A DNA stretch of 61,069 bases from Aromatoleum evansii (GTDB taxonomy: Bacteria > Pseudomonadota > Gammaproteobacteria > Burkholderiales > Rhodocyclaceae), in contig NZ_WTVK01000034.1 of assembly GCF_012910805.1 (NCBI RefSeq), positions 1 through 61,069 on the forward strand, in the 5' to 3' direction. The translations under genes and the position numbers were made by a program. This document shows, one piece after another, positions 14,654 through 30,058 of this stretch; positions within the stretch are counted from its first letter, which is position 1; the number at the start of each line of letters is the position of its first letter. The notes under the pieces are model-generated. The model was not told the origin of the DNA and ran no database searches. It saw nothing but the letters and a program-made list of their open reading frames with translations.

Positions 14654-14681
14654 GGCATTCTCCGGTGAAGGCGCCGGCCGC

Positions 14682-15329
14682 TTACAGCGGCGCCCAGTTG
14701 CGCAGGATGATGTCGCGGATGAGGGTGAGGCGGGCGTGGAAGAAGTGGTCCGCGCCGGGCACGACGACGACGGGCAGGTTCTGCGGCCGCGCCCAGTCGA
14801 GCACGTTCGCGAGCGACACGGTCTCGTCCTCCTCGCCGTGGATCACCAGCGTGTCCTTCGGCACGGGGCCGGTCGTGTAGCTGCGCGCGCCGCTCACCTC
14901 GCCGGCGGCGGTGCCGACCAGCACGATGCGGTGCGCGGGCGTCATGCCGTCGGCGAGCCGCGCGGTCACCCGCGTCTGCACGTGGGCGCCGAAGGAGAAA
15001 CCGCCCAGCGCGAGCGGCAGCGTGCCCCAGCGCGACTGCATCCACGCGATCACCGAGAGCATGTCCTCGGTCTCGGCGTTGCCGTGATCGTGCTCGCCCT
15101 CGCTCTTGCCGACGCCGCGGAAGTTCGGGCGCACGACCGCGTAGCCCAGTTCGCGCAGCGTGCGCGCGAGCGTGTGCACGATCTTGTTGGTGTTGGTGCC
15201 GCCGAACAGCGGATGCGGGTGGCACACCAGCGCGATGCCGCGCACCGTCTCGGGGGTGTCGATCAGCGCCTCGATGGCGCCGTCGCGTCCGCGCAGCAGG
15301 ACGCTCTCGGGGGGCTGCGGCCGGCTCAT
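14682..15329 (-). CDS. Alpha/beta hydrolase (serine esterase-like, dienelactone hydrolase/YheT-like group)
   Basis: This 215-residue protein has the oxyanion segment CHPHPLFGGTNTNK, the nucleophile elbow GGFSFGA (in place of GxSxG), a late Asp in HGEEDE and the catalytic His in GADHFFH. The match is to the small uncharacterised alpha/beta hydrolases of betaproteobacteria. The frame is open further upstream, but the ATG at 15329 fits family N-termini. It lies between the ferredoxin and glutathione transferase genes. Substrate unknown. Confidence 0.9.
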   Translation of the reverse strand: MSRPQPPESVLLRGRDGAIEALIDTPETVRGIALVCHPHPLFGGTNTNKIVHTLARTLRELGYAVVRPNFRGVGKSEGEHDHGNAETEDMLSVIAWMQSRWGTLPLALGGFSFGAHVQTRVTARLADGMTPAHRIVLVGTAAGEVSGARSYTTGPVPKDTLVIHGEEDETVSLANVLDWARPQNLPVVVVPGADHFFHARLTLIRDIILRNWAPL

Positions 15330-15402
15330 CTGAGCACCCTCGCGCTGCGCGCGGTCCCGCCAGGCGGGACTGAGCGCGTCTTGGGACGGCCCGGCGACGC
15401 GC

Positions 15403-15723
15403 TCATGGATTGTCCGCCAGCCGCAGGCGTTCGACGATGCGGCCGTGCACGAGATGCTCGTTGATGATCTCGTCGACGTCGTCCTGGTCGACGTAGGTGT
15501 ACCAGACGTTGTCCGGATACACGACCAGCACCGGGCCCTCGTCGCAGCGGTCGAGGCAGCCGGCCTTGTTGATGCGGATCTTGCCGCGGCCCTTGAGGCC
15601 GAGCGCGGCGATGCGGTCCTTGGCATAGGTCTGCATCACCGTCGCCTTGTGGTCGTTGCAGCAGGTGTTGCCGGGTTCGCGCTGGTTGCAGCAGAAGAAC
15701 ACGTGGTGCTTGAAATAACTCAT
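15403..15723 (-). CDS. Thioredoxin-like [2Fe-2S] ferredoxin
   Basis: This 106-residue protein has Cys at 11, 12, 21, 22, 56 and 60. Four of these match the cluster ligands of the thioredoxin-like 2Fe-2S ferredoxin family (Shethna/Fd2-type), with the second pair in AGCLDRC. The C-terminal half has the VWYTYVDQDDVDEIINEHL segment typical of the family. Some members support nitrogenase or hydrogenase chemistry, but no such genes are nearby. It lies 73 bp upstream of the hydrolase gene on the same strand. Confidence 0.93.
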   Translation of the reverse strand: MSYFKHHVFFCCNQREPGNTCCNDHKATVMQTYAKDRIAALGLKGRGKIRINKAGCLDRCDEGPVLVVYPDNVWYTYVDQDDVDEIINEHLVHGRIVERLRLADNP

Positions 15724-15793
15724 CGGGTGCTCCGGAAGGGGGGACGCGGCGGCGGGCCGTTCCGCAATGCGAGCGATTATAGCCGCGGGCCGC

Positions 15794-16873
15794 TCAACGC
15801 CGCGTGAGATGCTCCCCGCGCCACAGGCCCACCGCGGACAGGTAGGCGAGTGCGAGGAAGGGCCACAGGTTGGCGCTGAGTTCGGTGAGGCCGTGGAAGT
15901 TGAGGAAGTTGCCCTGGCCGAGCATGCGGTGGCCGACCTCGAAGTAGGGGTTCTCGGGCAGCAGGTTGGTGAGGCTGGTGGCCGCGAGCAGTGCGACGCC
16001 GGCCAGCGCGTGCTGCAGCACGCTCGCCAGCAGCAGTGCGGCAGCGAGCGCGAGCAGCCCCAGCAGCAGGCCCTGGCGCGTGCCCGGCGTGAGCCACAGC
16101 AGCGCTTCGCCGGGGAGGTAGAAGGATGCGGTCGCGATCGACTTGGCGCCGATCCCCAGCAGCAGGAGCAGCGCGATCGGCCACGGCGAGGCGCTGCGCA
16201 TCATGCAGCGTGCGAACAGGCCCACGCCGAGGATCGTGATCGCGACCTGCACGGTCTCGAGCAGGATGTAGCGTTCCGGCTCGAAGTGCAGCGGCGTCGG
16301 CAGGCCCAGCAACTGGCGCAGGTCGCCGCTGCCGAAGAGCACGCGGTCGGGCGTGAACTGCGCGAGCAGCCACAGGCCCAGCAGGATCAGCCCGAAGTCG
16401 CCAATGTGCCCCGGGATGACGCGCGCCGAGCGCCAGCGGTGCAGCCAGCCGCTCTGGTCGAACAGCGGATGGCCCCAGCGTGCGCCGGCGAGCGCCCCGA
16501 GCAGGGCGCCGGTGACGTTGCAGGCGAGGTCGACGTTCGACGGTACGCGCGTGGGCAGGAAGTTCTGCGTCACCTCCATGCCGAAGGACAGCAGCGCCGC
16601 GGCCAGCGTCGCGATCGCGACGCCCGCGCCGCGCCCGAGTCGTTGCGGCAGGGCCGGCGCGAGCACGAAGCCGAAGGGCAGGAAGCCGAGCACGTTCAGC
16701 ACGATGTCGGCGCTGCGGTAGTACTTGGGCCAGGGGGCGGCGAGGAAGTCGAGCAGGGGCAGCCCGGTCGGCCGCCAGCCGGTCAGCGGGTGCAGGCAGG
16801 CGTAGACGATCAGCAGTCCGTAGGCGAAGGCGAGATGGCGCGGCAGGGATGAAACGGCACGCGCGAGAGGCAT
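15794..16873 (-). CDS. VanZ-family membrane protein
   Basis: This 359-residue integral membrane protein has about nine to ten spans. The N-terminal 150 residues show the VanZ-like pattern, with an SADIVLNVLGFLPFGFVLA segment and a GMEVTQNFLPTRVPSNVDLACN segment. The C-terminal half adds further spans of unknown role. VanZ itself gives low teicoplanin resistance, but most VanZ-like proteins are of unknown function. The ATG at 16873 is chosen because the first span begins shortly after it. It may lead the following minus-strand gene group. Confidence 0.85.
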   Translation of the reverse strand: MPLARAVSSLPRHLAFAYGLLIVYACLHPLTGWRPTGLPLLDFLAAPWPKYYRSADIVLNVLGFLPFGFVLAPALPQRLGRGAGVAIATLAAALLSFGMEVTQNFLPTRVPSNVDLACNVTGALLGALAGARWGHPLFDQSGWLHRWRSARVIPGHIGDFGLILLGLWLLAQFTPDRVLFGSGDLRQLLGLPTPLHFEPERYILLETVQVAITILGVGLFARCMMRSASPWPIALLLLLGIGAKSIATASFYLPGEALLWLTPGTRQGLLLGLLALAAALLLASVLQHALAGVALLAATSLTNLLPENPYFEVGHRMLGQGNFLNFHGLTELSANLWPFLALAYLSAVGLWRGEHLTRR

Positions 16874-16994
16874 CGGCGGGTCGGGGCGCTGGAGTCGTGG
16901 AGCCTCGATTCTAGCCCGAACAGGTTTCAGCGCGCGCCTGCGGATTCGAGCCGGGCTGCGCGTTCGCGGGGGCCGCCCGCGATGCTCGTTCTGC

Positions 16995-17996
16995 TCAGAA
17001 CGCCAGCCGCGGCGGAGCCTCGCGCACGACGCAGCGTTGCCGGCGATCGCTTTCGGCGAGGATGGAGCGCTCGCGCGGCACAGCCGCCCGACGCACGCCG
17101 AAGATCTCGGCGAGGTTCGCACGTGCGTCGTGTACCGGGCGCAGCAGCGCGGCGGGGCCGGTGAGCAGCGGGGTGACGCCGGGCCCGTGGCCGCTCACGG
17201 TGCTGTCGCCATGCACGATCACGCCGATCGTCACGCGCCCCGACGCGTACAGCGGGCCGCGGCGGGTATCGGCGTCGGTGATGGCGACCATGTCGCCGAA
17301 ACGCAGGCTGCCCAGGCGGTAGCGTGCGCGAGTCGCGCGGTCGGCCAGCTGGATGTCGTAGTCGCCGCGCCACGCCGTGTTCTTGCCCAGCCCCGAGCCC
17401 ATGATGCGGGCCGGCACGAGGTGCGTGACCGGCACCTGCAGGCGGCCGTCGCGTTCGACGAGCCCCCAGCGGCGCAGCAGGCGGGGGGCGCAGTTGAGCA
17501 CTTCGATGCGCGGGTGGTCGGCAAGGCGCAGGCCCTGGCCGTGCGACACGATCTGCACGCGGTCGCCGATCTGCAGGCGCAGCAGCACTTCGGTGGGGAA
17601 GTCCACCAGCACGTGGTTGATGCCGCCGTGCTTGCCGGTGACGAGGCCCACCTTGCCGCTGCAGGGGCCGCTGACGATGCGGGCGAGATTGCCGACGCAG
17701 GCGTAGGTGATGAGGGCGTTGTTCGGTCCGTCGCGCGGTCCGACCACCTCGCGGTTGTTGTTGTGCAGGGCGGCGCCGGGTTCGATGTGGTCCCCCGCCA
17801 GGCCCACGCAGGGGTCGCCGATGCGCTGGTTCAGCACGATGCCGCCGGTGCCGGGGAGGACGCGCGGCACGCCGTCGTGACCGACGCGGTAGGCCGATGC
17901 GCGGGCGACGGGGTGGGCGACCTGGCCCTGCACGGAGACGGCGACGAGTTCGTCGGCGTTGAGGCGCGGCGTGGAGGCTTGCGCTCGGGTGTTCAT
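16995..17996 (-). CDS. DUF4438 domain-containing protein
   Basis: This 333-residue protein matches DUF4438 over its length. It begins with LVAVSVQGQVAHPV and has LPGTGGIVLNQRIGDPCVG, LAGDHIEPG, CVGNLA, VTGKHGGINHVLVDFP and a late HGDSTVSGHGPGVT. The family is soluble and its function is unknown. The conserved His, Asp and Gly loops suggest metal or ligand binding. The ATG at 17996 follows a GGGGGAG site. A 165-bp palindromic element lies just upstream and separates it from the next operon. Confidence 0.88.
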   Translation of the reverse strand: MNTRAQASTPRLNADELVAVSVQGQVAHPVARASAYRVGHDGVPRVLPGTGGIVLNQRIGDPCVGLAGDHIEPGAALHNNNREVVGPRDGPNNALITYACVGNLARIVSGPCSGKVGLVTGKHGGINHVLVDFPTEVLLRLQIGDRVQIVSHGQGLRLADHPRIEVLNCAPRLLRRWGLVERDGRLQVPVTHLVPARIMGSGLGKNTAWRGDYDIQLADRATRARYRLGSLRFGDMVAITDADTRRGPLYASGRVTIGVIVHGDSTVSGHGPGVTPLLTGPAALLRPVHDARANLAEIFGVRRAAVPRERSILAESDRRQRCVVREAPPRLAF

Positions 17997-18014
17997 GCGT
18001 CTCCCCCGCTGGGT

Positions 18015-18179
18015 TAGTGGTCTGCTTCGCAAATGCCGGGACACGAAAGCGCGTCTTGCGACCCGTGGCGGCGTTGCTCATCCTCGCAATAGCTACTGCT
18101 ATTGCTCCGGTTCGCGCCTTGCCTCAGCTCGCAATCCATCGCTTTCGTCCAGTCCCTTGATTTACGAAGCAGACCACTA
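18015..18179. repeat. 165-bp imperfect palindromic element with 20-bp terminal inverted repeats
   Basis: The ends 18015-18034 and 18160-18179 are inverted copies matching at 19 of 20 positions (TAGTGGTCTGCTTCG...). Inside, GGGACACGAAAGCG pairs with an inverted copy at about 18140-18156. The centre has GCAATAGC/GCTATTGC arms. The whole element could fold into one long hairpin. There is no coding capacity, which suggests a non-autonomous miniature element or dispersed palindrome. Its right end supplies the stop codon of the adjoining gene. Confidence 0.8.
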
Positions 18180-18998
18180 GATGAGATACCACCAGGCGCG
18201 GGCGTCGCGCCACGGATCGGTCGCGGCTTGCGCGTGCCCGCCGGCGAGCTCGTCGCCGCCGATGGCCCGGGGGGCGTCCCCGAGGGCGTCCCCGGTCATC
18301 ACGTGCACGACCGCGAGGGGCGGCAGGCGCTGCACCATGCTCGCGAGTCCGGCCGCGGCGAGCGCGTCACGCAGCAGCGCGCGTTCGGCGGCGAACAGGG
18401 AGTCGGGCGGCACGGGGTCGAGGCGGGCGGTGTGCAGGTCGAGGCGATGCAGGGCGCGGACCGGCCACGGATTGTCATCGCGCACGTGTGCGGTCAGCAC
18501 CACGGCCGCGTCGAGGGCGGCGGACAGCGCGAGGGTGTCGAGGCTTGCCTGCAGCGGATCCCACAGCAGCGGCCAGCCGTGCCGCAGCTCCGCCTCGCCG
18601 TCGCCCGCGCGGCCGGCGAGGCTTTCGGCGAGGCTCTCATAGCGCTCGAGCAGGCCGGCATCGGCGTGATCCTTGAGCTGCGATTCGGCGAAGCGGTCGC
18701 CCACCCAGCGGAACGGCCAGGAGCCCGCATCCGTGTGGTCGCGCAGGGCGATCCAGGCGCGCAGGACGTCGTCGCGCGGCTGCAGCATGTCGGGCGCGGG
18801 CGCGTCCGCCAACTGCGGCATCAGCAGTTCACTGGCGTCGATCAGCTGCCAGAAGGCGCGCGTGAGCCAGGGCTCGGTCACCCAGGTGAGCCGCAGCGCC
18901 AGTTCCAGTCCCCAGGCCGAGCCCAGCACCAGCGCGGGGTCGAGCACGCAGGGCAGCTTGCGGCTGCGCACCGAGACGAGGAGGTCGTCGGCCAGCAT
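18177..18998 (-). CDS. Uncharacterised protein, last gene of the metallopeptidase operon
   Basis: I do not recognise this 273-residue protein. It is acidic, rich in Leu, Ala and Asp, and predicted mostly helical. It has no signal peptide or membrane span. Trp residues are frequent in its first third. It is the seventh and last gene of the operon that starts at 26377, with 24 bp to the previous gene. The final residues and the TAG stop (18177-18179) abut the 165-bp palindromic element, so its original C-terminus may have been altered by insertion of that element. Confidence 0.72.
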   Translation of the reverse strand: MLADDLLVSVRSRKLPCVLDPALVLGSAWGLELALRLTWVTEPWLTRAFWQLIDASELLMPQLADAPAPDMLQPRDDVLRAWIALRDHTDAGSWPFRWVGDRFAESQLKDHADAGLLERYESLAESLAGRAGDGEAELRHGWPLLWDPLQASLDTLALSAALDAAVVLTAHVRDDNPWPVRALHRLDLHTARLDPVPPDSLFAAERALLRDALAAAGLASMVQRLPPLAVVHVMTGDALGDAPRAIGGDELAGGHAQAATDPWRDARAWWYLI

Positions 18999-19022
18999 CG
19001 CGCATCACGCCCGCTGCGCCGC

Positions 19023-20114
19023 TCAGGCGCTGACCGGCTGGGGCACGCCCAGCACGCTGTTCAGGGCCGGCGTCACGCCGGGGAAGCCGCGGCCTTCGGG
19101 CGTCATGCGGTAGGCGGCGATCCAGGCCTCGGCGTGGGCGCCCATCGGGCGGATCACGCTCTGGAACAGGATCGGGTCGATCGCGGTCTTGAAGTCGTTG
19201 TCGGCGACGAACTGCAGGATGCGCCGGCCGCTCTCGGCCATCTTGGCACGCTGCGAGGGCTCGGCGACGCCGCCGAGGTGGCGGTTGGAGACGATCTCGA
19301 CGACGTCCCACTTGGTGTTGGCGTCGAAGGCCTTCTTGATGTCGGGCGCGTCGAGGAGCTGCAGCACGGTCTTCAGGTAGTGGCCGGTCTCCATCGCCAG
19401 CGCGAAGATGTTGCCGTAGGTGGAGCGGTCGAGCGCGTAGCGCAGGTCGAGGCCGATGCGCTGCACGGTGGCGACGCTGCCGAAGGGGCGCTGCTCGATG
19501 AGCTGGCCGCCGCGGATGACTTCGCCGATCAGCAGGTCGCGGAAATACTGGCCGACGGCAACCATGAAGCCGACGATCTGGCGATGGAAGTTGCGATTCA
19601 CGACCGCGCCCGCCGGCGCCTGCGCGGTGCCGTAGTTGAAGGCGCGGCGGTAGGCGATCATGCGGTCGTTGAGGGTGTAGCGCAGCGGCGTCCATTTCTG
19701 CAGCAGGTACAGGCCGCGCGCGCCGGGGCCGCGCTGGATGCGCATCTTGCCGAGGCGGAAGAGACGCAGCAGCACGTCCATGACCTGGAAGATCTTCATG
19801 CGCTCGTGCTGGTAGATGTAGTACAGCTCGGCCGCCGCATGCAGCTGGCTGGGCACGACCGCGTCGTCGAAGTCGGGCTGGATGTACGGATAGGCGATCT
19901 GGTCGAATTCCGGCGCGCCGTCGTCGCCGAAACCGATCAGGTCGAGGAAGCCGTCGCGTCCGCTGCCGTTGGCCGCACCCTTGAGCAGCTCGCCGAAGCG
20001 CTGTTCGAACTGCTGTTCGAAGGGCTGGCGCTGCTCGGGCGGCAGATTGGCCAGCTGGTCGCGCAGGAAGGTTTCCCAAAGGCGCTGGATGGTTTCGGTG
20101 GTCTGGAAGCTCAT
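19023..20114 (-). CDS. Uncharacterised 363-residue protein of the metallopeptidase operon
   Basis: I do not recognise this protein. It is soluble and predicted all-helical. The N-terminus is Gln/Glu-rich (about 20-45) and several aromatic clusters follow (AYPYIQP, ELYYIYQHER). Basic and acidic residues are balanced, unlike the two paralogues at the head of the operon. There is no signal peptide and no obvious catalytic motif. It is encoded 27 bp after the 206-residue protein gene and probably has a structural or binding role in the same system. The ATG at 20114 lies close behind a GGAGCG-type site. Confidence 0.78.
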   Translation of the reverse strand: MSFQTTETIQRLWETFLRDQLANLPPEQRQPFEQQFEQRFGELLKGAANGSGRDGFLDLIGFGDDGAPEFDQIAYPYIQPDFDDAVVPSQLHAAAELYYIYQHERMKIFQVMDVLLRLFRLGKMRIQRGPGARGLYLLQKWTPLRYTLNDRMIAYRRAFNYGTAQAPAGAVVNRNFHRQIVGFMVAVGQYFRDLLIGEVIRGGQLIEQRPFGSVATVQRIGLDLRYALDRSTYGNIFALAMETGHYLKTVLQLLDAPDIKKAFDANTKWDVVEIVSNRHLGGVAEPSQRAKMAESGRRILQFVADNDFKTAIDPILFQSVIRPMGAHAEAWIAAYRMTPEGRGFPGVTPALNSVLGVPQPVSA

Positions 20115-20141
20115 GATTTCGCTCCTGGGGGCAGACGGGCG

Positions 20142-20762
20142 TCAGGCGTTTCCTTGGTCGTCCGGGAGATCCAGCGCGGCGATCTCCACGCACAGCTGCT
20201 GCATCTCGGCCCAGCGCCGGCTGCGGTGGGCGGGCGTGGGGTCGTCGAATTTGCGCAAGGCGCGGTCGAAACGGTCCTTCAGCTCGGGCGGCAGCACCGA
20301 GCGCACGGCGTCGGCCGTGTCCGAGCGGCGCAGCGCCTCGATCGCGACGTCATCCTTGAACTGCTTCGGCTTGCCCACGGTCTCGTCGGGTGTGGCGTCG
20401 AGCGCTATGCCTTGGGCCTGGATCAGGATGCGCAAGGCCGGGGCGACGCGCGCATCGATGTCCGGTGGCGGTGCTGGTGGCGGGATCGGGGTCGATTTCA
20501 GGTCTCCGACGATCTGCGTCGCGGTGATCGCCAATTCGGTCTTGATCTGGCTGAGTGTGTCGATCTTCGACTGGTCGATGTGGGCGGGAAGTGCACCGAC
20601 TTGCGCACGGATCGCTGCGAGGTCCGGCGCCAGCGGCGCGATTGCGCCGGGCAGGGTGCTCACGACGGCGGTGCGAATCTCGGACAGCACCGTGGCGCCG
20701 CCCAGCGCGCGCGACAGGGCGCGATCGATGCGGTCATGGAATTTCGGAACGTAGGCGAGCAT
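20142..20762 (-). CDS. Uncharacterised 206-residue helical protein with Pro hinge
   Basis: I do not recognise this protein. Residues 1-85 look like amphipathic helices, possibly coiled coil. A short proline hinge (PIPPPAPPP, about residues 91-99) follows, and then a second helical half with many charged residues. There is no signal peptide or membrane span. It lies 33 bp after the 660-residue protein gene and 27 bp before the 363-residue one, so it belongs to the same transcript. Confidence 0.75.
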   Translation of the reverse strand: MLAYVPKFHDRIDRALSRALGGATVLSEIRTAVVSTLPGAIAPLAPDLAAIRAQVGALPAHIDQSKIDTLSQIKTELAITATQIVGDLKSTPIPPPAPPPDIDARVAPALRILIQAQGIALDATPDETVGKPKQFKDDVAIEALRRSDTADAVRSVLPPELKDRFDRALRKFDDPTPAHRSRRWAEMQQLCVEIAALDLPDDQGNA

Positions 20763-20795
20763 GGCGTGACTCCTTGCGAACCCGGCGCGGGGCGG

Positions 20796-22778
20796 CTAGC
20801 GGCGCTTCTGCAGGGCCGCGACGCGGTTCGGGCGGCCGAGGCCGGTGCGCTCGACGTTGTCGATGAAGGTGTCGAACGAGGTCTCCAGCGCGGGCGGCAG
20901 GTCGATCGGAGCCTCTTCGCGGCACACTTCGCCGGCGACCGCTTGCGTCGCAATGTCGACGACTTCGCGCAGTTGGCCGAGCGAGATGTCGATCGTGCCG
21001 CAGTTTGCGATCATCGTATGGACGAGGTTGTCCCAGCGGGTCTCCATTTCGCGCTGCAGGCACAACTCCTGCTCGATCACGCCGACGTAGGCCTCGACCT
21101 CGCCGTCGCCTTCGACGAAGACGTCGGCCGCGCGCAGGCGCGCGTCGCTGCGCACGATGGCCGCGTACAGCCTCGTCAGCGTGACGGCGTCGGTGCTGCC
21201 GGTCACCCCTCCGGGTAGCGCTGCCCGCCGGTTCACGACGTCGTCGGTGTCGGGCAGGCCGGCGGCCGTCAGTGCCGCGATGATTCGTGCTGCCAACTCG
21301 CGGATGCGACGCACGGCGGTGCGCATGCCTTCGTCCGTCGCGATGTCGATCGACGGACGCAACACGTCGTCCGCCAGCTCCTCAAGACGCTCGATCACCT
21401 TCTGGTCGAGCGCGGTTGCTGCGGGGGTGCGGCATGGGCCGGCCGCGGCGATCACCGCATCGATCACGAAGCCATAGGCCGACGCGCGCCGCTCGGTCGC
21501 GCCGAAATCGGAGAACCCGAGCGCGTACAGGTCGATCGCGCGGTCGAGGTCGTACAGCACCTTGTCGAGCAGCACGAGGCATGCGCGGTTGCTCGTGCAG
21601 CAGCTGCCGGCGTGGCAGTCGAGCGTCTCGGCGAGCATGCCGCGGCGCGTGATCAGCTCCACGAGGCGGCGATCGGCGTCGTCCATGCCGGTGTTGCCGT
21701 ACAGGCCGTAGAACAGGATGGGCGGACGGGCGATCTTCATCAGGCGGAAGCCGCCGGCGGAGTCGAAGGCCGAGGCGAAGAACTGCAGGGCTTCGAGGTA
21801 GGCATAGAGCGCAGGCGACTCCGGGCTGATGCCGCGGCGCGCCACCTTCACCATGCGGCGGAAGCGTTCGAGCGCGAGCAGGGCCGTGGATCCTACCGCG
21901 CGCAGGCCGTCCGAGGTGTTGTCGCCGCTGCGCTGAACGAGCTCGTCCATCGTGCGTGCCAGTTCCGTCTCCACCAGCAGCGAGCGCAGATCGTTCTGGC
22001 CCTGCGCCTCCAGCAGCTCGGTGAGCTGGCGATAGGCGTCCAGGCCGCGCGGCCAGTCTTCCGGGCCGTAGGCCATCTGCGTGCTGCCGACGAGATTGCG
22101 CAGCGCGTAGATCGCCGCGTCGCGCCGCGTCTGCAGTTCGCTGTAGGCCACCTGCGGCAGGTAGCGTCCGCCGCCGAAGCCGATGTTGGCGAGCGCCTCG
22201 CCCATGATCACGAGCAGCAGGTTGGCCGCCTCGTCGAGGCTCTGCGCGAACTTGCGGAAGTTCGCCACCAGCGCCGGCGTGTGTGCGCCGACCAGGCGGG
22301 CGAGGCGGGCGTAGTCGTTGAGCTGGCGGCGCATCGCGAAGCCCTTGTCGCGGTTGCGCGGGTCGAGTGCGAAGCGTGCCGCGTTGTAGCCTTCCGCCAG
22401 TGCCGTGCGGATCGCCTGCGCCCAGCCGTGCAGCTCGGGCTTCACGTCCTTGAGGATGGCGTCGGCGGTCAGGCTGCGCAGGTCGCTTTCGATGTCGTCG
22501 GTGGCCTGCTGCCACTCCGCGCCGCTGGCCGCGGACTGCGTCGAGACGGTCGCCACCGGCGCGACCGCCTGCAGGAAGGGCAGGCCGCGCGATTCCTGCG
22601 TGATCGCCTGGGCGCGCGGGTCGCCGCGGTAGCGCTCGAGCAGCGCCTGCGCCACCTGCTGCGGATCGCTCGGGTCGCCGACCTTCAGTTCGCGCCGGAT
22701 CAAGTTGTCCAGCACCAGGCGATCCTGACTGGTCGTCAGGGCGGTTGGATTCGATGAGGAAGAGGCGTAGCTGGGCAT
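20796..22778 (-). CDS. Uncharacterised 660-residue protein of the metallopeptidase operon, with a Cys cluster
   Basis: I do not recognise this large protein. It is predicted helical and soluble. The N-terminal 30 residues are Ser/Thr-rich and look disordered. A Cys cluster near residues 385-398 (CHAGSCCTSNRAC) could bind metal or form disulfides. Further single Cys residues are in CLQREM, ANCG and VCREE. No known catalytic motif is visible. It is the largest product of the operon, and its gene sits 36 bp after the metallopeptidase gene, so it is a candidate substrate, scaffold or partner. Confidence 0.78.
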   Translation of the reverse strand: MPSYASSSSNPTALTTSQDRLVLDNLIRRELKVGDPSDPQQVAQALLERYRGDPRAQAITQESRGLPFLQAVAPVATVSTQSAASGAEWQQATDDIESDLRSLTADAILKDVKPELHGWAQAIRTALAEGYNAARFALDPRNRDKGFAMRRQLNDYARLARLVGAHTPALVANFRKFAQSLDEAANLLLVIMGEALANIGFGGGRYLPQVAYSELQTRRDAAIYALRNLVGSTQMAYGPEDWPRGLDAYRQLTELLEAQGQNDLRSLLVETELARTMDELVQRSGDNTSDGLRAVGSTALLALERFRRMVKVARRGISPESPALYAYLEALQFFASAFDSAGGFRLMKIARPPILFYGLYGNTGMDDADRRLVELITRRGMLAETLDCHAGSCCTSNRACLVLLDKVLYDLDRAIDLYALGFSDFGATERRASAYGFVIDAVIAAAGPCRTPAATALDQKVIERLEELADDVLRPSIDIATDEGMRTAVRRIRELAARIIAALTAAGLPDTDDVVNRRAALPGGVTGSTDAVTLTRLYAAIVRSDARLRAADVFVEGDGEVEAYVGVIEQELCLQREMETRWDNLVHTMIANCGTIDISLGQLREVVDIATQAVAGEVCREEAPIDLPPALETSFDTFIDNVERTGLGRPNRVAALQKRR

Positions 22779-22814
22779 GTTCGGATCCTCGTGGTGAAAA
22801 TGGCCGGGCCGGCG

Positions 22815-24080
22815 CTATGCGACCCGCCGCAGGGGCGTGCGCTGCGAGCCTGTTCCGTTGAGCTGTTCGATCACGCGCCGAGCGAGCACGGGGGCGGTGA
22901 TGCGGCCGTGCCCCAGTGCGTAATGCGCCGCGCTGACCAGATGGCGGGGCGCCAGCGGGGGCCGCTGGCCCGCTTCGATCTCGCGGGCGCCGGCGCGGAT
23001 TGCCGCCTCGTCCTCGCGGGCGAAGGGGATGATGTCCACCAGCGCGCGCTGGGCGAGGTTGCGCCGTGTCTGGAAGGCGATCTCGTCGACGACGTCGGGA
23101 ATGATCCGCGGCGCGCTGCTCATCAGCGGCGCCGGGATGCGGTGGCCGCGCTGCGGGCGGTATAGGCCTTGCCACACACGCAGCAGCTTCGTCGCGTCGG
23201 CGGTGAAGCCCAGCCGCCGCATCATCTCGGCCAGCAGGTACACGCGCAGGTAGGCCGTGGGATGGGCGCCGCCGGGGCGGTAGGTCATCGTGCGCGGCTG
23301 CGGGTGGGCGAGGAAGTCCGCCATGCCCCACGCCGCCGCCGGTCCGCCGAGCAGGATCGCGGCAAGATCGGCGAAGATCTCCTTGTGCCAGCGGCCATAC
23401 ACCGTGGACAGGAAGGGATCGCGCGTGCGCCCCATGATCCGGCGCAGCACCGCCTTGCGGTTTTCCTGCCAGATCCCCAGGTCGGCCTGCAGGTTGTGCG
23501 CGACCTCGTGCAGGAACACCGACTGCCACGGCTGGTCGCGGTCCCACGGGATGCGGATCAGCGGGAAGGGGTTGGCTTCGCCCAGCAGGCGCGACAGCTG
23601 CACGCCGCGGCGCATTGTCGCCGGTGAATAGCCATGCTCCATGTAGCACACGGGTTTGAGCAGCGGCGCGTCGAAGATGCGCGGCGCGGCCTGGCGGATC
23701 GCCTGGTAGCAGTCGTCGGCGATGACGTCGTGCGCGGCCAGCGCGGGGCCGAAGCTGGTGCCGCGCTGTGCGAACACCTCGTAGAACATCCCGAACAGGC
23801 GTCGCGCGCGGTCCAGTTCGCGCTCGACCAGCGCGACGTCGATCAGCACGCGTTGCGGCGGGCGCCGCTCCCAGCCCTCGTGCAGGGTCGCGAAACGTGC
23901 GCGTATGCGCTGTTCGACGGCCGCCAGGCGTTCGTTGGCGACCTGGAAGTGGCGCGGCGAGGGGGCGTAGGGCATGTCCTGCGGCCGCAGGCCGACGAAG
24001 GCATTGTCGATCCGCGCGAGCCGCGACAGGCGGGCCGACAACCCGTTGATCTTGGCCTGGAGGAATCGCCGCAGGTCCAT
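22815..24080 (-). CDS. Predicted zinc metallopeptidase (HExxH, gluzincin-like)
   Basis: This 421-residue protein has the zinc-binding motif HEVAHNLQADLG, with H191, E192 and H195. About 39 residues later comes KEIFADLAAILLGGPA, whose Glu (about 234) or Asp fits a third ligand, in the EIxAD...LLGPA pattern of several uncharacterised Zn peptidases. No signal peptide or membrane span is seen. The first 130 residues are helical and charged. It is third in a seven-gene operon, after the two acidic/basic paralogues, so processing of one or both of them is a reasonable hypothesis. Activity itself is inferred from the motif alone. Confidence 0.82.
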   Translation of the reverse strand: MDLRRFLQAKINGLSARLSRLARIDNAFVGLRPQDMPYAPSPRHFQVANERLAAVEQRIRARFATLHEGWERRPPQRVLIDVALVERELDRARRLFGMFYEVFAQRGTSFGPALAAHDVIADDCYQAIRQAAPRIFDAPLLKPVCYMEHGYSPATMRRGVQLSRLLGEANPFPLIRIPWDRDQPWQSVFLHEVAHNLQADLGIWQENRKAVLRRIMGRTRDPFLSTVYGRWHKEIFADLAAILLGGPAAAWGMADFLAHPQPRTMTYRPGGAHPTAYLRVYLLAEMMRRLGFTADATKLLRVWQGLYRPQRGHRIPAPLMSSAPRIIPDVVDEIAFQTRRNLAQRALVDIIPFAREDEAAIRAGAREIEAGQRPPLAPRHLVSAAHYALGHGRITAPVLARRVIEQLNGTGSQRTPLRRVA

Positions 24081-24114
24081 GATGTCCGCCTCCGATGGCG
24101 CCCGGAATGCCGGC

Positions 24115-25197
24115 TCAGCGTCCGCGGATGGTGATCGTCACCGGCCCGCGCAGGCGCATCGTGCGCACGCCGCAGTGCGGGCAGCCGCCGACGATCGTGG
24201 CCGGGGCGCGGCGCACGGTGGCCGTGACGACGCGGCGGGCGACGGGAGCGACCGTGCGGGCGATCACGCGTGCCGCCTGTCCGCGTGGCGTCGCGCGACG
24301 CGCGGGGGCCACCAGCGGGCGCGCGAGGCGGCTCACCGCCTGCGGCTGACGCACGACCTGCTGCGCGACGCGCTGCACCACGCGACCGGCCGCGCGTGGC
24401 GCGATGCGCCGGCGCTGCACGATGCGGCGTGTCGCACGCACGGCGCGCGCGACCGCCCGTGCCGCGGTGGGGCCCTGACGGCGTGCCGCCGTGCGGACCG
24501 CGCGTGCGACACCACGCACGACGGCGCGGCGCACCTGCGGCGCTGCGCGTGCCACCGACGGCAGCGCGCGGCGCACCACCATGCCCGCAAGCACCGGCGC
24601 GGCGGCGTCGATGCCGTCCTCGTCCAGGCCGTCGACCAGCTCGTCGAACACCTCGAATTCGTCGGCGCCATCCGCCAGCAGGCGTCCGGCGACATTGGCG
24701 ATGCGGCCGATCAGCTGCGCCTGCGGAATCGGCAGCATGCTCGCGAGCGGCCCCACCACGCGCGCGGCGCGGCCGATGCCGCGGCCGACACCGCGTGCGA
24801 TGCGCCCGAGGCGGCGGAAGAACTCGTCGCCGTCGGCGGCGTCCATCGCTTCGGCGACGACGTCGTCCATCGCGTCGACCGCATCGCCCGCATCCCAGTC
24901 GTCGGCGGCATACTCGTCCATCTCGTCGCCCGCGTCGCCGAGTTCGTATTCGTCCGCCTCGTCGTACTCGTCGAAGCCCTCGCCGCCACCGCCTCCGCCG
25001 CCCAGCAGCCCCGCGGCGACGCGCCCGACACCGCCGAGCAGGCGGCCAAGAAACTCGTCGTCGCCTTCGTCGCCGTAGTCCTCCGCGTCGTACGCGTCCT
25101 CGTCCATCTCGTCGTAGGCGTCCATCGCGTTGCGGCTGGGGCCCTCGGCCGCCTCGTCCATGAGGTCGTCCATCACATCGGTTTCGAATCGGTCCAT
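24115..25197 (-). CDS. Bipolar acidic/Arg-rich, lysine-free protein with C-terminal CPHCG motif (paralogue of the next gene)
   Basis: I do not recognise this 360-residue protein. Residues 1-125 are dominated by Asp, Glu, Tyr and Met. From about 130 the chain is Arg, Ala and Val rich. No lysine occurs anywhere. The motif DDEFLGRLLGGVGR (about 46-59) recurs as GDEFFRRLGRIARGVGR, and a Gly run lies between them. Near the end is CPHCG, followed by GPVTITIRGR. The paralogue encoded upstream has the same order and a similar ending. An AAAGGAG site precedes the ATG. The charge split suggests self-assembly, coacervation or polyanion binding; this is inference. Confidence 0.78.
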   Translation of the reverse strand: MDRFETDVMDDLMDEAAEGPSRNAMDAYDEMDEDAYDAEDYGDEGDDEFLGRLLGGVGRVAAGLLGGGGGGGEGFDEYDEADEYELGDAGDEMDEYAADDWDAGDAVDAMDDVVAEAMDAADGDEFFRRLGRIARGVGRGIGRAARVVGPLASMLPIPQAQLIGRIANVAGRLLADGADEFEVFDELVDGLDEDGIDAAAPVLAGMVVRRALPSVARAAPQVRRAVVRGVARAVRTAARRQGPTAARAVARAVRATRRIVQRRRIAPRAAGRVVQRVAQQVVRQPQAVSRLARPLVAPARRATPRGQAARVIARTVAPVARRVVTATVRRAPATIVGGCPHCGVRTMRLRGPVTITIRGR

Positions 25198-25222
25198 GGT
25201 GGTCTCCTTTCTGCGGCTGGGA

Positions 25223-26377
25223 TCAACGGGGGGTGATCGTGAGGGTGGCCGGCCCGTTGATATGGATGACGCGGCGTTGGCCGGTGCCGCCCGTCGGCAT
25301 GCCGTGGCCGATGTCCGTGGGGCGGGCGAGCGGCCGCGGCGGGCGCGCCCGGGCCCGGGCCAGGCTGGCGGCCATGCGCGGGCTCTGTGCGACACGCCGG
25401 GCCGCCTGCGGCAGGCCGCGGCGCACGACCTGCACGGCGCGTTGCGGGGTGGGCGCCTGACGCTGCGCCACGCGCGTCGCCGAACGGGCAAGGCCGGGCA
25501 GCGCGCGCACCGCCTGCGGGCCGCGCGAACGCACCAGCTCGCGTGCCGCCGCAGCCACGCCGCGCACCAGCGCCCGCCGGGAAGCCATCGACAGTTGTCC
25601 GACGTTGCGGAAGCCCAGCCCGCGCGCCGCCGCACGTGCGGCCAGGCCGACCGCCGCCGGCAGGGCTTCGTCGATGCCGTCCTCGAGGTAGAGGTCCGCC
25701 ACCGCGTCGAAGGCGTCATCGGCGCCCTCGCTCTGGCCCAGCAACTGGCTCAATTGAGCGAACAGGCCCTGCGCGCCGCCGGCCGCCTGGCCGAAGGAAC
25801 CGGCCAGCCCGCGGGCATGGCCCGCTGCGCGTCCGACGCCCTGGGCGGCGCGACCGACCTGCCCGAGTGCGTTCGCCGCGCCCGGAGCGCCGAGCATGCC
25901 GGCAAGCCGGGCAGCGGCCATCGCCGCCGGCGACACGGCGCCGGCCACCCGGCCGACGCGTCCGGCAACCCGCCCTGCCTGGCGCGCGAAACCGCGGGCG
26001 CGGCCGGCGATGCGGGCAACGCCGCCAAGGCCGCGGCTCATGACGCCGGCCGCGCGTCCCAGCCCGCCCAGCAGGCGGCCGAAGAACTCGTCGTCGTCGG
26101 CCGCGTCGAGCGCATCGGCCACCTCTTCCTCGAACGCGTTCCACAGCGCCATGTCGTCGACGCCCTCGTCCGCGCCTTCACCGAGATCGACGGCGGAATC
26201 GCCGAGGTCCGCGGCTTCGTCGCCGGACAGCTCCTCGCCGGCTGCGTCGTATTCGTCGGCAAAGGGATCGGAGCCGAAGTCCGCGCCGGCGTCCGCCTCG
26301 TCGAACGTGGCGGCCTCGTCCATGCCGTCGCCGACCGCGTCCGCGTCATCCATCAGGTTCGTGTCGAATGGTCCCAT
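25223..26377 (-). CDS. Bipolar acidic/Arg-rich, lysine-free protein, first gene of the operon
   Basis: I do not recognise this 384-residue protein. Residues 1-100 contain no Lys or Arg and are Asp/Glu-rich. The motif DDDEFFGRLLGGLGR (about 94-108) then opens a long Gly/Ala/Arg-rich part. An EDGIDEALPAAVG segment matches DEDGIDAAAPVLAG in the paralogue. The end, HINGPATLTITPR, also resembles it. Neither Lys nor Cys occurs in the whole chain. There is no signal peptide. It is the promoter-proximal gene, 494 bp away from the leader peptide of the divergent LuxR-type regulator. Confidence 0.78.
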   Translation of the reverse strand: MGPFDTNLMDDADAVGDGMDEAATFDEADAGADFGSDPFADEYDAAGEELSGDEAADLGDSAVDLGEGADEGVDDMALWNAFEEEVADALDAADDDEFFGRLLGGLGRAAGVMSRGLGGVARIAGRARGFARQAGRVAGRVGRVAGAVSPAAMAAARLAGMLGAPGAANALGQVGRAAQGVGRAAGHARGLAGSFGQAAGGAQGLFAQLSQLLGQSEGADDAFDAVADLYLEDGIDEALPAAVGLAARAAARGLGFRNVGQLSMASRRALVRGVAAAARELVRSRGPQAVRALPGLARSATRVAQRQAPTPQRAVQVVRRGLPQAARRVAQSPRMAASLARARARPPRPLARPTDIGHGMPTGGTGQRRVIHINGPATLTITPR

Positions 26378-26871
26378 CGCATGCCTCCGCAATCGATGCT
26401 GCCGCAGGGAGGGAACGGCGCGGCCCGCCCTGGGCGCATGCCTGATCCCGCCATGGCTGCACTCTAGGCAGGGGCGGCCGCTGGCGAAATCGCGCGATGT
26501 CGCTAGTCCGGAAAGGGGCGCCGGTGCGCGCCGGCGGGGTTGCGGGAGTGCCGATGGGGGCGGCAAAACGGGGGCGCGTGGACGTCCGCGAGCGGGTGTA
26601 CTAGCTCAAATTGGGTAGTCCGTTTATACCGTCTTCTGGGACTTGCGCTTTGCCGGGGCGTATGCCAAAAAGACAAAAACTTCATACCAAAGGGATGCGT
26701 CGCACCCCCGGCAGAGCGACAGATCGACCCGATCCCGTGGTCGAGGCGCAGTCTTGCTTGTGCAATCGTGGTGCAGCGCCGGACATTCCGCGCGAGAGCG
26801 CACGTCGAGCGAGGACGTCGCGGCGAACCGCCGCTGGCGTCTTCATCCGCACAGGTCAAAGAGGAAGAGAC
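26378..26871. other. Divergent intergenic region between the metallopeptidase operon and the LuxR regulator
   Basis: About 490 bp without a convincing gene. It holds an AT-richer patch around 26605-26700, including TATAAA-like sequence on the minus strand near 26625 that could be a -10 for the operon. The heptamer TAGTCCG occurs at 26504-26510 and 26616-26622 and could be a regulator site. I cannot place transcription starts with confidence. Open frames through this region lack ribosome sites and look non-coding. Confidence 0.45.
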
Positions 26872-26940
26872 ATGCAGCTGGGATTCTGCTGGGTCGGGCG
26901 TCGGGCAAGGCCGGATTTCGCGCGAGCGCCGTCGTCGTGA
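26872..26940 (+). CDS. Putative 22-residue leader peptide coupled to the LuxR regulator
   Basis: An ATG at 26872 lies a few bases after a strong GAGGAAGAG ribosome site. It opens a 22-codon frame (MQLGFCWVGRR...) ending in TGA at 26938-26940. This stop overlaps the GTG start of the regulator in a GTGA arrangement, which is typical of translational coupling. The regulator itself has no ribosome site of its own at that start. The alternative is that the peptide is the true N-terminus and the frame was shifted. Confidence 0.5.
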   Translation: MQLGFCWVGRRARPDFARAPSS

Positions 26941-27470
26941 CCGCCCATCGCAAGGATGGGGGTGAGCCGTTCGGGGCGCATGCCCGGGAGTCGGAGGGGG
27001 CCGCGCGCTGCGATGCCGGACGGGAGATCGGGCAGATCGAGCTGGCCGGGCGCACCTGCCGCGTCGTGCTCGTCGACGGCCTGATCCCGGGCCACCTCAC
27101 GACCGGAGGTGCCAAGGGCGTGCGCCTGACCTATGTGGACGGCGAAATCGCCCACTTCGAATTCGAGGGGCACCGCTACGCGGTGGTCGCGGACCCTGCG
27201 GGGCGTCCGGGCGTCGGCCCTTCCGCCGAAGCGCTTGCCCATGCCGCGCCGGACATCGCCAGGGTGCTGACCAGCCGGGAACTGCAGATCGTCCAGCTGC
27301 TGTGCATGGGCTATCTGACCAAGCAGGTGGCCGATCGGCTGCGCATCAGCGAATTCACCGTGCGGTCCTACCTCAAGACGGTGTATGCGAAGCTGGGGGT
27401 GCGTTCGCGTGCGGCGCTGGTGTTCCGCTACATGAAGACCTTCAACGGCGGGAACGAGCGGCTCGAATGA
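26937..27470 (+). CDS. LuxR-type (GerE HTH) transcriptional regulator
   Basis: This protein of about 177 residues has a C-terminal LuxR/NarL helix-turn-helix at about 108-165, with LTSRELQIVQLLCMGY, VADRLRISEFTVRSYLKTVYAKLGV and RAALVFRY. The N-terminal 100 residues form a small domain of unknown type (IELAGRTCRVVLV, AHFEFEGHRYAVV), with no phosphoacceptor receiver domain. The GTG at 26937 overlaps the leader peptide stop. The frame is open upstream, but without a ribosome site. Being divergent from the seven-gene operon, it is that operon's most likely regulator. Confidence 0.82.
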   Translation: MTAHRKDGGEPFGAHARESEGAARCDAGREIGQIELAGRTCRVVLVDGLIPGHLTTGGAKGVRLTYVDGEIAHFEFEGHRYAVVADPAGRPGVGPSAEALAHAAPDIARVLTSRELQIVQLLCMGYLTKQVADRLRISEFTVRSYLKTVYAKLGVRSRAALVFRYMKTFNGGNERLE

Positions 27471-27557: not shown

Positions 27558-28061
27558 TCAGTGCGCGCCGAGCGACTGCTGCGGGCGGTTGCGCGTCAGC
27601 GGGTTCAGGCGGCGCAGCACGCTGGAAGGTGCGTATTCCGCGTGCAGGGCGTCCCAGTCGATCGCGTCCAGCGTGTTCTTGACCAGCAGGCCGAGGTCGG
27701 TGGCGCCTTCCATCAGCAGGCGGCGGCCGAAGAACAGCGTGTCGGGGTCTTCCTCGCGCAGCGCCAGCGCGATGTAGTCGCGCACGTTGGCAGTGAGCGT
27801 GAGGTCGGGCTCGCCGCCGCTCGCCAGCGGTACGAAGCCGCGCGGGCCGAGGGTGAAGTCCAGCGTCAGGCCGGCGTCGCGCACGCGCATGCGCAGGTGG
27901 CGGCCGGTCAGCGACTCGAGGTCCTCGCGCGACAGCACGCGACCGAGCGCGAGGTTGAGCGCCGTGGTCAGCGCCAGCGTGGGCGGGCGCTGCGGCAGGT
28001 GCGACGCGAGGCGCGCGAGCGGCGCGGGGAGCGTGAAGGCCGGGATGCGGAAGCTGCTCAT
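27558..28061 (-). CDS. ubiT: O2-independent ubiquinone biosynthesis accessory factor UbiT (SCP2 domain)
   Basis: This 167-residue protein has a sterol carrier protein 2-like lipid-binding fold. The central part (LTGRHLRMRVRDAGLTLDFTL, DLTLTANVRDYIALAL, DPDTLFFGRRLLMEGATDLGLLVKNTLD) matches UbiT well. UbiT binds lipids and, with UbiU and UbiV, permits ubiquinone synthesis without oxygen. The gene is third in the ubiUVT operon, 25 bp after ubiV. The identity is secured by its neighbours. Confidence 0.93.
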   Translation of the reverse strand: MSSFRIPAFTLPAPLARLASHLPQRPPTLALTTALNLALGRVLSREDLESLTGRHLRMRVRDAGLTLDFTLGPRGFVPLASGGEPDLTLTANVRDYIALALREEDPDTLFFGRRLLMEGATDLGLLVKNTLDAIDWDALHAEYAPSSVLRRLNPLTRNRPQQSLGAH

Positions 28062-28086
28062 CGGATGTGACTCCAGGAAAACGAAA

Positions 28087-28983
28087 TCAGGCGGAGACGT
28101 ACTGTTCGACGCCGGGGCGGCCGTGCCAGAAGCCGTTGCACGGCGCCTCGACCATCAGCGCCTTGCTCTGGCCGAAGGCGTCCTGCGGCGACAGCTTGCC
28201 GGCGACCGCGTCGCGGAAGAGCTCGAGCACGCGCACGGTGTCGTCGCCCTGTGGGCTCACGCGCAGCACCTGGGCGGTCTCGCGCAGCTTGGGCAGGTCG
28301 CCGAGCAGGTTATGCACGCGTGCCGACTGCGTCTGCACGCCGTTGAGGGTCAGGAAGGCCTCGCCTTCGCGGGTGCGCAGCACCAGGCCGTCCTTCATGC
28401 CCAGGCAGCGGAACTCGCAGGTGTCCTTCTGCAGGTTGTAGTGGCGGGCGGTGAAGCAGCGCGCCGAATGGGCGAGCGGTAGCCGCCCCCAGGCGAGCAC
28501 TTCGGTCTCGATCGCGGGGGCGCCGGAGGCGAGGAGTTCGGCGAGCACCGCGCCGGACATCTCGGGCGGCGCCATCCAGCGCGTCGCGCCCGCTTCGGCC
28601 AGCATCGACAGCGTCTGCGGGTTGAAGATGTTGAGCGTCGGGCCGGCGATCCAGTCGCGGCGGCCGGCCTTGGTCAGCAGCTGCACCGCCGACATGTCGT
28701 TGGCTTCGACGCGGAATTCGTCCTGCGCGACGACGCGGCGCAGGGCCTTGAGGTCGGATTCGGATTCGATCAGCGACTGCGAGGACAGCACGGCTTCCTT
28801 GCCGGCGGCCTTGAGCATCGCCGCGACTTCGAGCCAGTCTTCGGCGCGCAGTTCGTGGCGGCGCGAGCACACCGTTTCGCCGAGATAGACGATGTCGGCG
28901 GGACTTTCCGCGACCTGTGCGTAGAAGTCGAGTGTCTGCTGACGCGACCAGTAGTAGAGCAGGGGACCCAGGGCAATTTTCAT
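28087..28983 (-). CDS. ubiV: O2-independent ubiquinone hydroxylation protein UbiV (U32-like)
   Basis: This 298-residue U32-family protein starts MKIALGPLLYYW. Four conserved Cys fit the [4Fe-4S] ligands known for UbiV: C39 in ETVCSRRHEL, then SARCFTARH and TCEFRC. UbiV works as a heterodimer with UbiU in the oxygen-independent ring hydroxylations, using prephenate as oxygen donor in E. coli. It starts 5 bp after the ubiU stop. Confidence 0.95.
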   Translation of the reverse strand: MKIALGPLLYYWSRQQTLDFYAQVAESPADIVYLGETVCSRRHELRAEDWLEVAAMLKAAGKEAVLSSQSLIESESDLKALRRVVAQDEFRVEANDMSAVQLLTKAGRRDWIAGPTLNIFNPQTLSMLAEAGATRWMAPPEMSGAVLAELLASGAPAIETEVLAWGRLPLAHSARCFTARHYNLQKDTCEFRCLGMKDGLVLRTREGEAFLTLNGVQTQSARVHNLLGDLPKLRETAQVLRVSPQGDDTVRVLELFRDAVAGKLSPQDAFGQSKALMVEAPCNGFWHGRPGVEQYVSA

Positions 28984-28988
28984 CGTGT

Positions 28989-30002
28989 TCACTTCCACGG
29001 CCGGTAGTACGCGCCGAGCGTGTGGCTGCGGCCTTCGGAAACCTTGTCGAGTTCGGCGATCCAGGCGGGCTGCACCTTGAAGCCGTCGGCGTCGCGCATG
29101 ACCTTGTCGATCGCCTCGCGCCAGACCTTGGTGACCTGCGCGACGTAGGCCGGGCTGCGCTGGCGGCCTTCGATCTTGATCGCGCGCACGCCGGCGCGGG
29201 CGAGTTCGGGCAGCAGTTCCAGCGTGTTGAGGCTGGTCGGTTCCTCGATCGCGTAGTAGGTCTCGCCGTTCACGTCGAAGCGGCCCTTGCACAGGGTCGG
29301 GTAGCCGGCGCGCTCGCCGTCGTCGAAGCGGTCGATGAGGATGCCGTTGAGCCGTGTTTCCATGCCCTTGGGCGTCTGTTCCCAGCGCACGTGCTTGCCC
29401 GGCGAGCAGGCGCCGTTGCAGTTGGGCGATTCGCCGGTCGCGTAGGCGGACAACGCGCAGCGCCCTTCGACCATCACGCACAGGCCGCCGAAGCCGAACA
29501 CCTCGATCTCGACCTGGGTGTTGGCGATGACGTGCTGCACCTGCGGCAGCGACAGCACGCGCGGCAGCACCGCGCGCTGGACGCCGAAGCGCTCGGCGTA
29601 GAAGTTGATCGCCTCGTAGGTGGTCGCGGAGCCCTGCACGGAGAGGTGCAGGCGCAGCTGCGGGTGCTTCTTCTGCGCGTAGGCCATCAGGCCGGGGTCG
29701 GCGACGATGATCGCGTCGATGCCGAGGTCGGCGGCGCGGTCCACCGCGGCGGTCCAGCCGGACCAGTTGCCGGCCTGCGGATAGGTGTTGAGGGCGACGA
29801 GGACCTTGCGCTTGCGGTCGTGGGCGTAGCGCACGCCTTCGGTCATCGCCTTGGCGTCGAAGTTCAGGCCGGTGAAGTTGCGCGCGTTGGTCGCGTCCTT
29901 GAAGCCGAGGTAGACGCAGTCGGCTCCATGGTCGACGGCCGTCTTCAGCGCCGGCAGGCTACCTGCCGGGCAGACGAGTTCGATTTTCGTATTGGAGGTC
30001 AT
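28989..30002 (-). CDS. ubiU: O2-independent ubiquinone hydroxylation protein UbiU (U32-like)
   Basis: This 337-residue U32-family protein has the LVCPAGSLPALKTAVDHGADCVYLG start, FGFGGLCVMVEGRCALS and PNCNGACSPGK segments and a further Cys in LCKGRFD, which together match the [4Fe-4S] ligands of UbiU. It is the first gene of ubiUVT. The ATG at 30002 has an AGGTC-type site close by; an upstream ATG at 30035 is possible but less likely. An FNR-like box lies 57 bp upstream. UbiUVT lets denitrifiers make ubiquinone anaerobically. Confidence 0.95.
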   Translation of the reverse strand: MTSNTKIELVCPAGSLPALKTAVDHGADCVYLGFKDATNARNFTGLNFDAKAMTEGVRYAHDRKRKVLVALNTYPQAGNWSGWTAAVDRAADLGIDAIIVADPGLMAYAQKKHPQLRLHLSVQGSATTYEAINFYAERFGVQRAVLPRVLSLPQVQHVIANTQVEIEVFGFGGLCVMVEGRCALSAYATGESPNCNGACSPGKHVRWEQTPKGMETRLNGILIDRFDDGERAGYPTLCKGRFDVNGETYYAIEEPTSLNTLELLPELARAGVRAIKIEGRQRSPAYVAQVTKVWREAIDKVMRDADGFKVQPAWIAELDKVSEGRSHTLGAYYRPWK

Positions 30003-30058
30003 GGCGGGGGTTGGGGAAAAAAGCTCCGCAACCATAGTTCGCCGGCGTCCGGCCCGCG

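Follow-up and report, generated by a model that had tools for sequence, protein, structure and literature searches.

The 61,069-nt window analysed here is the whole of contig NZ_WTVK01000034.1 (G000:C258 in our numbering) of the 5.9-Mb Aromatoleum evansii genome, and it contains a minus-strand operon of eight genes, labelled A to H, with a regulator gene diverging from its upstream end. Seven minus-strand genes with gaps of 24–36 bp had been described in a first-pass annotation made from the letters of the window, and open reading frame (ORF) analysis returned the same ORFs, coordinates and strand (gaps from A to G of 25, 34, 36, 33, 27 and 24 bp). The seven-gene boundary was too narrow, since H belongs to the same conserved series and a LuxR/GerE-type gene diverges upstream. 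The features are listed below by coordinates and strand.

A, 25223..26377, minus strand: 384 aa, bipolar protein 1.
B, 24115..25197, minus strand: 360 aa, bipolar protein 2.
C, 22815..24080, minus strand: 421 aa, predicted zinc metallopeptidase with HEVAHN motif.
D, 20796..22778, minus strand: 660 aa, almost wholly helical in the AlphaFold model.
E, 20142..20762, minus strand: 206 aa, fast-evolving, between D and F.
F, 19023..20114, minus strand: 363 aa, helical, the most conserved member.
G, 18177..18998, minus strand: 273 aa, family unassigned.
H, 16995..18044, minus strand: DUF4438 protein (PF14505 and PF20999), start at 18044 (GTG) or 17996 (ATG).
LuxR/GerE-type regulator gene, about 26643..27470, plus strand: divergent from A, PF00196, start codon unsure.

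The closest named relatives of the locus are those of Aromatoleum toluvorans (L006) and A. tolulyticum (L007), and ratios of nonsynonymous to synonymous substitution (dN/dS) of A–H against these two were 0.00–0.46, for which reason A–H are regarded as genes and not chance ORFs. The ratio was lowest in F (0.00 and 0.03 against L006 and L007, respectively) and highest in E (0.46 and 0.37); the F protein is identical in L006 over 363 residues, and E, the fastest member, is 69–75% identical. Related loci (77) were collected by a scan with C. Alignments omitted partial rows, rows without a fitting start and rows more than 93% identical to a kept row, leaving 63/78 rows for C, 49/70 for F, 66/72 for D, 57/61 for G, 55/60 for H and 9/9 for E; the rows analysed were 57 for C, 54 for D, 46 for G, all 49 for F and 64 for the bipolar proteins, the window included.

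A and B had been described as bipolar, lysine-free paralogues, and charge polarity, zero Lys content and homology were all borne out. A has an acidic N terminus, a glycine-zipper-like middle and an Arg-rich tail with the end INGPATLTITPR; B has the leader MDRFETDVMDDLMDEAAEGP, a conserved central DGDEFF, and CPHCG and RGPVTITIRGR at the C terminus. The two are 37% identical over B residues 125–307, hold 41 (A) and 51 (B) Arg and 47 (A) and 58 (B) Asp + Glu, and have a 40-residue charge that rises from −12/−15 N-terminally to +7/+9 C-terminally. Homologues of B share leader residues D11, L12, E18 and G19, the central DEFF, R223, G242 and a C-terminal G-P motif (52/63); E18 and G19 were conserved in 92% of the 64 rows, E125, F126, R223 and G242 in 98% and G351 in 89%, and the C-terminal CxxC was present in only 28/63. 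With leader, core and tail all conserved in the aligned sequences, the bipolar proteins are more than low-complexity sequence. Absence of Lys, true of A and B and of 52/94 homologous bipolar proteins, was not upheld as an independent hallmark: it is tied at least in part to base composition (mean Lys/(Lys + Arg) of 0.41 below 50% G+C vs 0.08 above 65%), though the correlation with G+C of the locus over all 94 proteins was only −0.26. GxxxGxxxG-type spacing was found 423 times in 91 related bipolar sequences, compared with 316 ± 17 in shuffled sequences. A leader pattern, defined after examples had been seen, matched 44/101 bipolar proteins, 8/135 accessory genes in the operon span, 0/400 core genes and 1/673 flanking ORFs, the last itself bipolar-like. 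B matched phrog_19044 at an E value of 0.01 only.

The assignment of C to the HExxH peptidases was sustained by its alignment, in which the residues H191, E192 and H195 (HEVAHN) and E234 and D238 (KEIFAD) are invariant over all 57 rows, giving the HExxH motif together with the conserved downstream acidic ligand that serves as the sequence criterion for a zinc metallopeptidase. No Pfam match was obtained at E 0.01 in any of the 57 members and no NCBIfam match at E 1 for the window protein, and a profile search of the PDB was also empty. C is a predicted zinc metallopeptidase outside the named Pfam and NCBIfam peptidase families searched.

None of the proteins A–G had a Pfam or NCBIfam match over curated cut-off, in agreement with the first-pass annotation, where no family had been recognised for the six non-peptidase products. 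The AlphaFold model of D was almost wholly helical (mean predicted local distance difference test (pLDDT) 86.7, predicted template modelling score (pTM) 0.82), and an LDCxxxCxC...C region is present in the majority consensus of its family. F was also predicted to be helical, in a model of moderate quality (pLDDT 76.4, pTM 0.67). Neither model had a match in the PDB by Foldseek at E ≤ 0.001; the weaker fold rows (talin, TTYH, ClyA-like) were read as helical arrangements of a common kind, and this absence excludes no family. Matches of FAD-oxidase_C to D (E 0.02) and of LPD26 to F (6/49 members, best 0.0026, window protein 0.096) lay under the cut-off and were not used. Mean column identity of F was 66% with 36 invariant columns over 49 rows, remote forms of 32–36% identity included, and the window protein is 75–91% identical to those of betaproteobacterial and cyanobacterial relatives and of most gammaproteobacterial ones. 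E was found in 11 loci, the window included; in other loci, its slot between D and F often holds another small gene (uncounted).

The 77 C loci span Beta-, Gamma- and Alphaproteobacteria, Cyanobacteria, Myxococcota, Planctomycetota, Acidobacteriota and a Desulfuromonas contig (L036), and cover five or six phyla. Member counts were taken only over loci with enough sequence beyond C, and the profile scans did not include L001–L003. F was present in 67/67 loci, D in 70/72, G in 57/64, H in 56/62 and a bipolar-profile gene in 63/64 loci with at least 1.5 kb upstream. Among 52 fully flanked loci, 50 had bipolar protein, C, D and F, 43 had all six families, and every one had a LuxR-profile gene somewhere. 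Colinearity on one strand was scored in 48/52 using stop-to-stop starts; by start-trimmed coordinates, three of the four exceptions (L011, L045 and L063) look colinear, while L080 truly differs.

Co-occurrence was also tested independently of the loci chosen with C, using F and C profiles over 398 Pseudomonadota and 244 Cyanobacteria. In three pseudomonadotal and five cyanobacterial genomes F matched strongly (E ≤ 2e-90), and strong C matches (E ≤ 4e-109) fell in the same three and five; two of these eight were centre genomes and six were independent. All unpaired matches were weaker, for C in G210, G389 and G641 (2e-28 to 3e-22) and for F in G725 (2e-26) and G750 (3e-4). With the F profile only, 15/155 Myxococcota (14 strong) and 1/159 Planctomycetota, the centre genome itself, were matched. 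Within the window's genus, C occurs patchily, in 3/17 genomes with the window's own counted. Member identities covaried in six pairs (Mantel r 0.73–0.92, 0/999 permutations as high), values that shared ancestry inflates. The pattern that the first-pass annotation had named as support for one system, a peptidase with a bipolar protein and two or more helical partners in conserved order, recurs in dozens of genomes from several phyla, and C and F also pair independently. Scattered homologues, which it had set against a single system, were seen only among remote relatives, as C-like proteins without F and F-like domains of about 25% identity without C. On these comparisons, the operon members almost certainly form one system, the core of which, as judged from conserved gene content, is the bipolar protein or proteins, metallopeptidase C, the large helical D and the very conserved helical F, set in a conserved series of eight genes plus LuxR.

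In a tree of F built by a quick method, the five cyanobacterial rows and Candidatus Kuenenia fell within starred sets (98) with Betaproteobacteria and 7/9 Gammaproteobacteria, and 17/19 alphaproteobacterial rows and two Chromatiaceae stood apart from the sets with Cyanobacteria and Kuenenia. Because the tree mixes Cyanobacteria and Kuenenia with Beta- and Gammaproteobacteria, the system crosses phyla, and horizontal movement of the whole set is the simplest account. A four-gene core ordered alike from Proteobacteria to Cyanobacteria and unmatched in the family libraries searched points to a widely traded function.

H was assigned to PF14505 (180 bits, cut-off 24.9) and PF20999 (163.9 bits, cut-off 27) with an E value of 2.2e-53, and is a homologue of Thermotoga TM1086 (PDB 3dcl, E 3.4e-66), whose structure was solved as 'uncharacterized protein'. 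It is a full-length member of the DUF4438/TM1086 family (PF14505, PDB 3dcl and 3n99), which is uncharacterised and gives no information on A–G. No literature on DUF4438 was found in open-licence PubMed Central (PMC), and of the papers found there for TM1086, PF14505 or the 3DCL structure, one was on protein crystallisation (PMC2661377) and the rest were apparently off topic. The regulator gene matched PF00196 with 55.3 bits (cut-off 23.5, E 5e-15). When neighbourhoods were clustered, H recurred in 58 loci and the LuxR gene in 63, on either strand. Immediately after H, a membrane protein gene (15794-17122, minus strand) appeared by eye to be VanZ-like, and such a gene also lies downstream of H in L006. 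On the other side, the operon adjoins UbiT (NCBIfam NF047962) and two ORFs that by eye look like U32-type UbiU/UbiV (27558-30035, minus strand), which are ordinary anaerobic ubiquinone genes.

Beyond the close relatives, L080, L082, L091 (genome G247) and the Paraburkholderia plasmid L098 carry bipolar protein, C, a middle gene, F and LuxR, with no match to D, G or H in the stretches examined. In L080 (Thermoanaerobaculia, 3222-17754), both strands carry bipolar ORFs of the acidic-to-basic type, at least four in all and some with Lys-rich tails, and a trypsin-like gene is present too. The cyanobacterial loci L122–L124 combine C and F with charge-bipolar genes and with one or two middle genes; a G homologue is also encoded in L124, on the opposite strand. 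In L122, a charge-bipolar gene is followed by C, a gene for a 593-aa protein and F, and then by one whose 500-aa product has an acidic leader and the domains Peptidase_M15_3 (9.7e-20) and PG_binding_1; the start of the L122 middle gene weakly resembles transthyretin, under cut-off (TTR-52, 6.4e-4). Three proteins of L124 (10556-15970) share the start QWLFE[AT]P (QWLFEAPL or QWLFETPF) and differ in their bodies, which by eye resembled M15 peptidase, lysozyme and GIY-YIG nuclease; the family searches made did not confirm these. A trypsin-profile gene is present in 26/77 loci, the remote L080 included (Pfam Trypsin 4.1e-11 in L047), and in L009 the trypsin-like gene begins with a bipolar-type leader, being one of the eight accessory leader matches.

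In G210, G389 and G641, C-like proteins (E 3e-22 to 2e-28) were unaccompanied by F in the same sample. Remote C-like peptidases were seen beside CHAT-domain genes on plasmids of Bradyrhizobium quebecense (L099) and Sinorhizobium terangae (L100), with S8/S53, patatin and phospholipase D genes nearby in the former and a C25 peptidase gene in the latter. F-like domains (about 25% identity) lie in ORFs of about 600 aa in L101, L102, L125 and L140, which apparently form a separate locus type: the genes of L101 and L102 adjoin annotated S8 peptidases (S8 in L125 by eye only), and no C match was seen near the F-like genes of L101, L102 and L125 in the stretches seen. These F-like loci also hold a repeated family of 361–484-aa proteins, and L102 has a 1254-aa protein with Amidase_2, C70 and C92. 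Overall, the first-pass annotation was right in seeing one system; what it had missed were H, the LuxR regulator and the related loci that carry toxin-like accessory proteins.

The best reading of the operon, which we hold tentatively and the mechanism of which we infer from sequence, is a system for the processing and holding of leader-bearing, membrane-active or toxin-like proteins. A and B would be inactive membrane-active or toxin-like precursors, in which the acidic N-terminal half (leader plus acidic stretch) would neutralise the cationic, glycine-zipper-containing half. C, joined in some relatives by the trypsin-like protease, would cleave the leader-bearing proteins, and D, F and probably E and G would act as a soluble scaffold on which these are held or assembled. 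The outcome may be antagonism of other cells or controlled lysis, as suggested by the addition of leader-bearing enzymes such as peptidoglycan hydrolases in related loci. Several observations weigh against such a scheme. The leader pattern occurs on only 8/135 accessory genes and 44/101 bipolar proteins, and the glycine-zipper excess in A alone is weak (12 vs 8.1 ± 2.6). The extreme conservation of F is such as occurs more often in a structural or enzymatic core than in an arms-race toxin system. No toxin enzyme, export gene or immunity gene was recognised in the window's operon with Pfam and NCBIfam. The PD-(D/E)XK-, GIY-YIG-, lysozyme- and phospholipase-like domains of L015, L039, L121, L123 and L124 were assigned by eye only, and for those tried, Pfam, NCBIfam and PDB sequence searches brought no confirmation.

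Two main rivals to this favoured reading were weighed. Polyampholytes A and B could, with the helical D, F and G, build a cytoplasmic particle, compartment or condensate for which C is the assembly protease, with no antagonism involved. This structural account is unlikely, even if several features suit it: A–H have no 19-residue hydropathy window above 1.6, the helical D and F models drew no Foldseek match at E 0.001, F is nearly invariant and the conserved G-P motif ends B homologues in 52/63. It leaves unexplained the trypsin-profile genes of 26/77 loci and the leader-bearing M15/peptidoglycan-binding protein of L122, and the D model, the one compared with predicted viral proteins by Foldseek, had no match among them at E ≤ 0.001.

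The second rival, which we consider slightly less likely still, is a protease cascade for immunity or controlled death, akin to the CHAT/trypsin/caspase conflict systems of multicellular bacteria, where infection or stress would trigger C and trypsin and lytic cationic peptides would be released within the cell. It draws on the remote C homologues that adjoin CHAT genes, with S8/S53 (L099) or C25 (L100) peptidase genes, on rhizobial plasmids, on the remote F domains next to S8 peptidases, on an L102 gene that matches Trypco2 weakly (E 0.0098) and on the patchy, horizontally moved distribution. Searched with Pfam and NCBIfam, however, A–H contain no nucleoside triphosphatase (NTPase) and no sensor of the STAND (signal transduction ATPases with numerous domains) type, nor the MoxR ATPase or vWA domain of VMAP ternary conflict systems; the PADLOC anti-phage models gave 0 matches to these eight proteins at E 0.1. 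Hosts of the operon also include bacteria that are not known to be multicellular in habit.

That A–H provide cargo and loading functions for an extracellular contractile injection system (eCIS), with the injection machinery encoded elsewhere, is highly improbable. Payloads of eCIS also bear N-terminal leaders, and the likeness lies in this idea of a leader-bearing cargo and in an eCIS-like locus on another contig of the same genome (L139, G000:C221:146000-165900), where Pvc16_N, a 726-aa sheath ORF and, by eye, tube-like genes were seen. Pvc16_N was compared in 80 genomes, 27 carriers and 53 chosen non-carriers, with kinship and genome size uncontrolled, and was commoner in carriers (14/27 vs 11/53). 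The excess falls mainly in Myxococcota (10/14 vs 1/15), where it may be explained by close kinship of carriers, and in Cyanobacteria (2/5 vs 2/20). The cargo reading is disfavoured because 13/27 carriers lack Pvc16_N, including single-contig G042 and G551 (operon on a 5.5-Mb contig), and because the window's genus has no clear enrichment (2/3 carriers, 8/14 non-carriers). Sheath PF04984 was found in 7/14 carriers, and unlike such systems A–H contain no sheath or tube domain. An obligatory tie, with machinery in every carrier, was rejected on the same 14/27, unless the carriers lacking Pvc16_N rely on a contractile system not captured by it. A phage or prophage module was likewise rejected, as C and F, the two proteins searched, were unmatched in 50,697 phage records and in viral contigs, and the F-like domain of L101 had no phage match.

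Bacteriocins of the Cdz type are small and have dedicated type I secretion. No dedicated type I transporter gene was found among A–H, to which the search was confined, and A and B differ further in having acidic and Arg-rich halves and the partners C–H. The glycine-zipper two-protein bacteriocin Cdz (PMC5380434) resembles the present operon in that two proteins with glycine-zipper-like spacing are encoded together. No published description of the operon itself was found in open-licence PMC. The nearest published idea found was the metallopeptidase-precursor module described by Kaur et al. (2020, PMC7159879). There, in the FxSxx-COOH-type systems, a zincin-like peptidase adjoins variable, possibly cleaved proteins, which is the likeness to the present operon; those systems have a small precursor with a conserved C-terminal peptide, coupling to NTPase ternary systems and, in one type, a radical S-adenosylmethionine (SAM) gene (PMC7159879). 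The candidates here differ in being bipolar proteins of 360–384 aa accompanied by the helical D and F, and A–H have no NTPase or radical SAM domains. A bolder and rather doubtful reading is a new protein-deployment system, in which acidic leader peptides would bring polyampholytic membrane-active proteins, together with toxin-like enzymes, to a soluble scaffold of D and F, to be armed by a dedicated metallopeptidase. If the leader reading is true, bacteria would have a new route to store and arm toxic proteins, and such a system, spread over at least five phyla, would be neither a known secretion system, nor a contractile injector, nor a bacteriocin operon.

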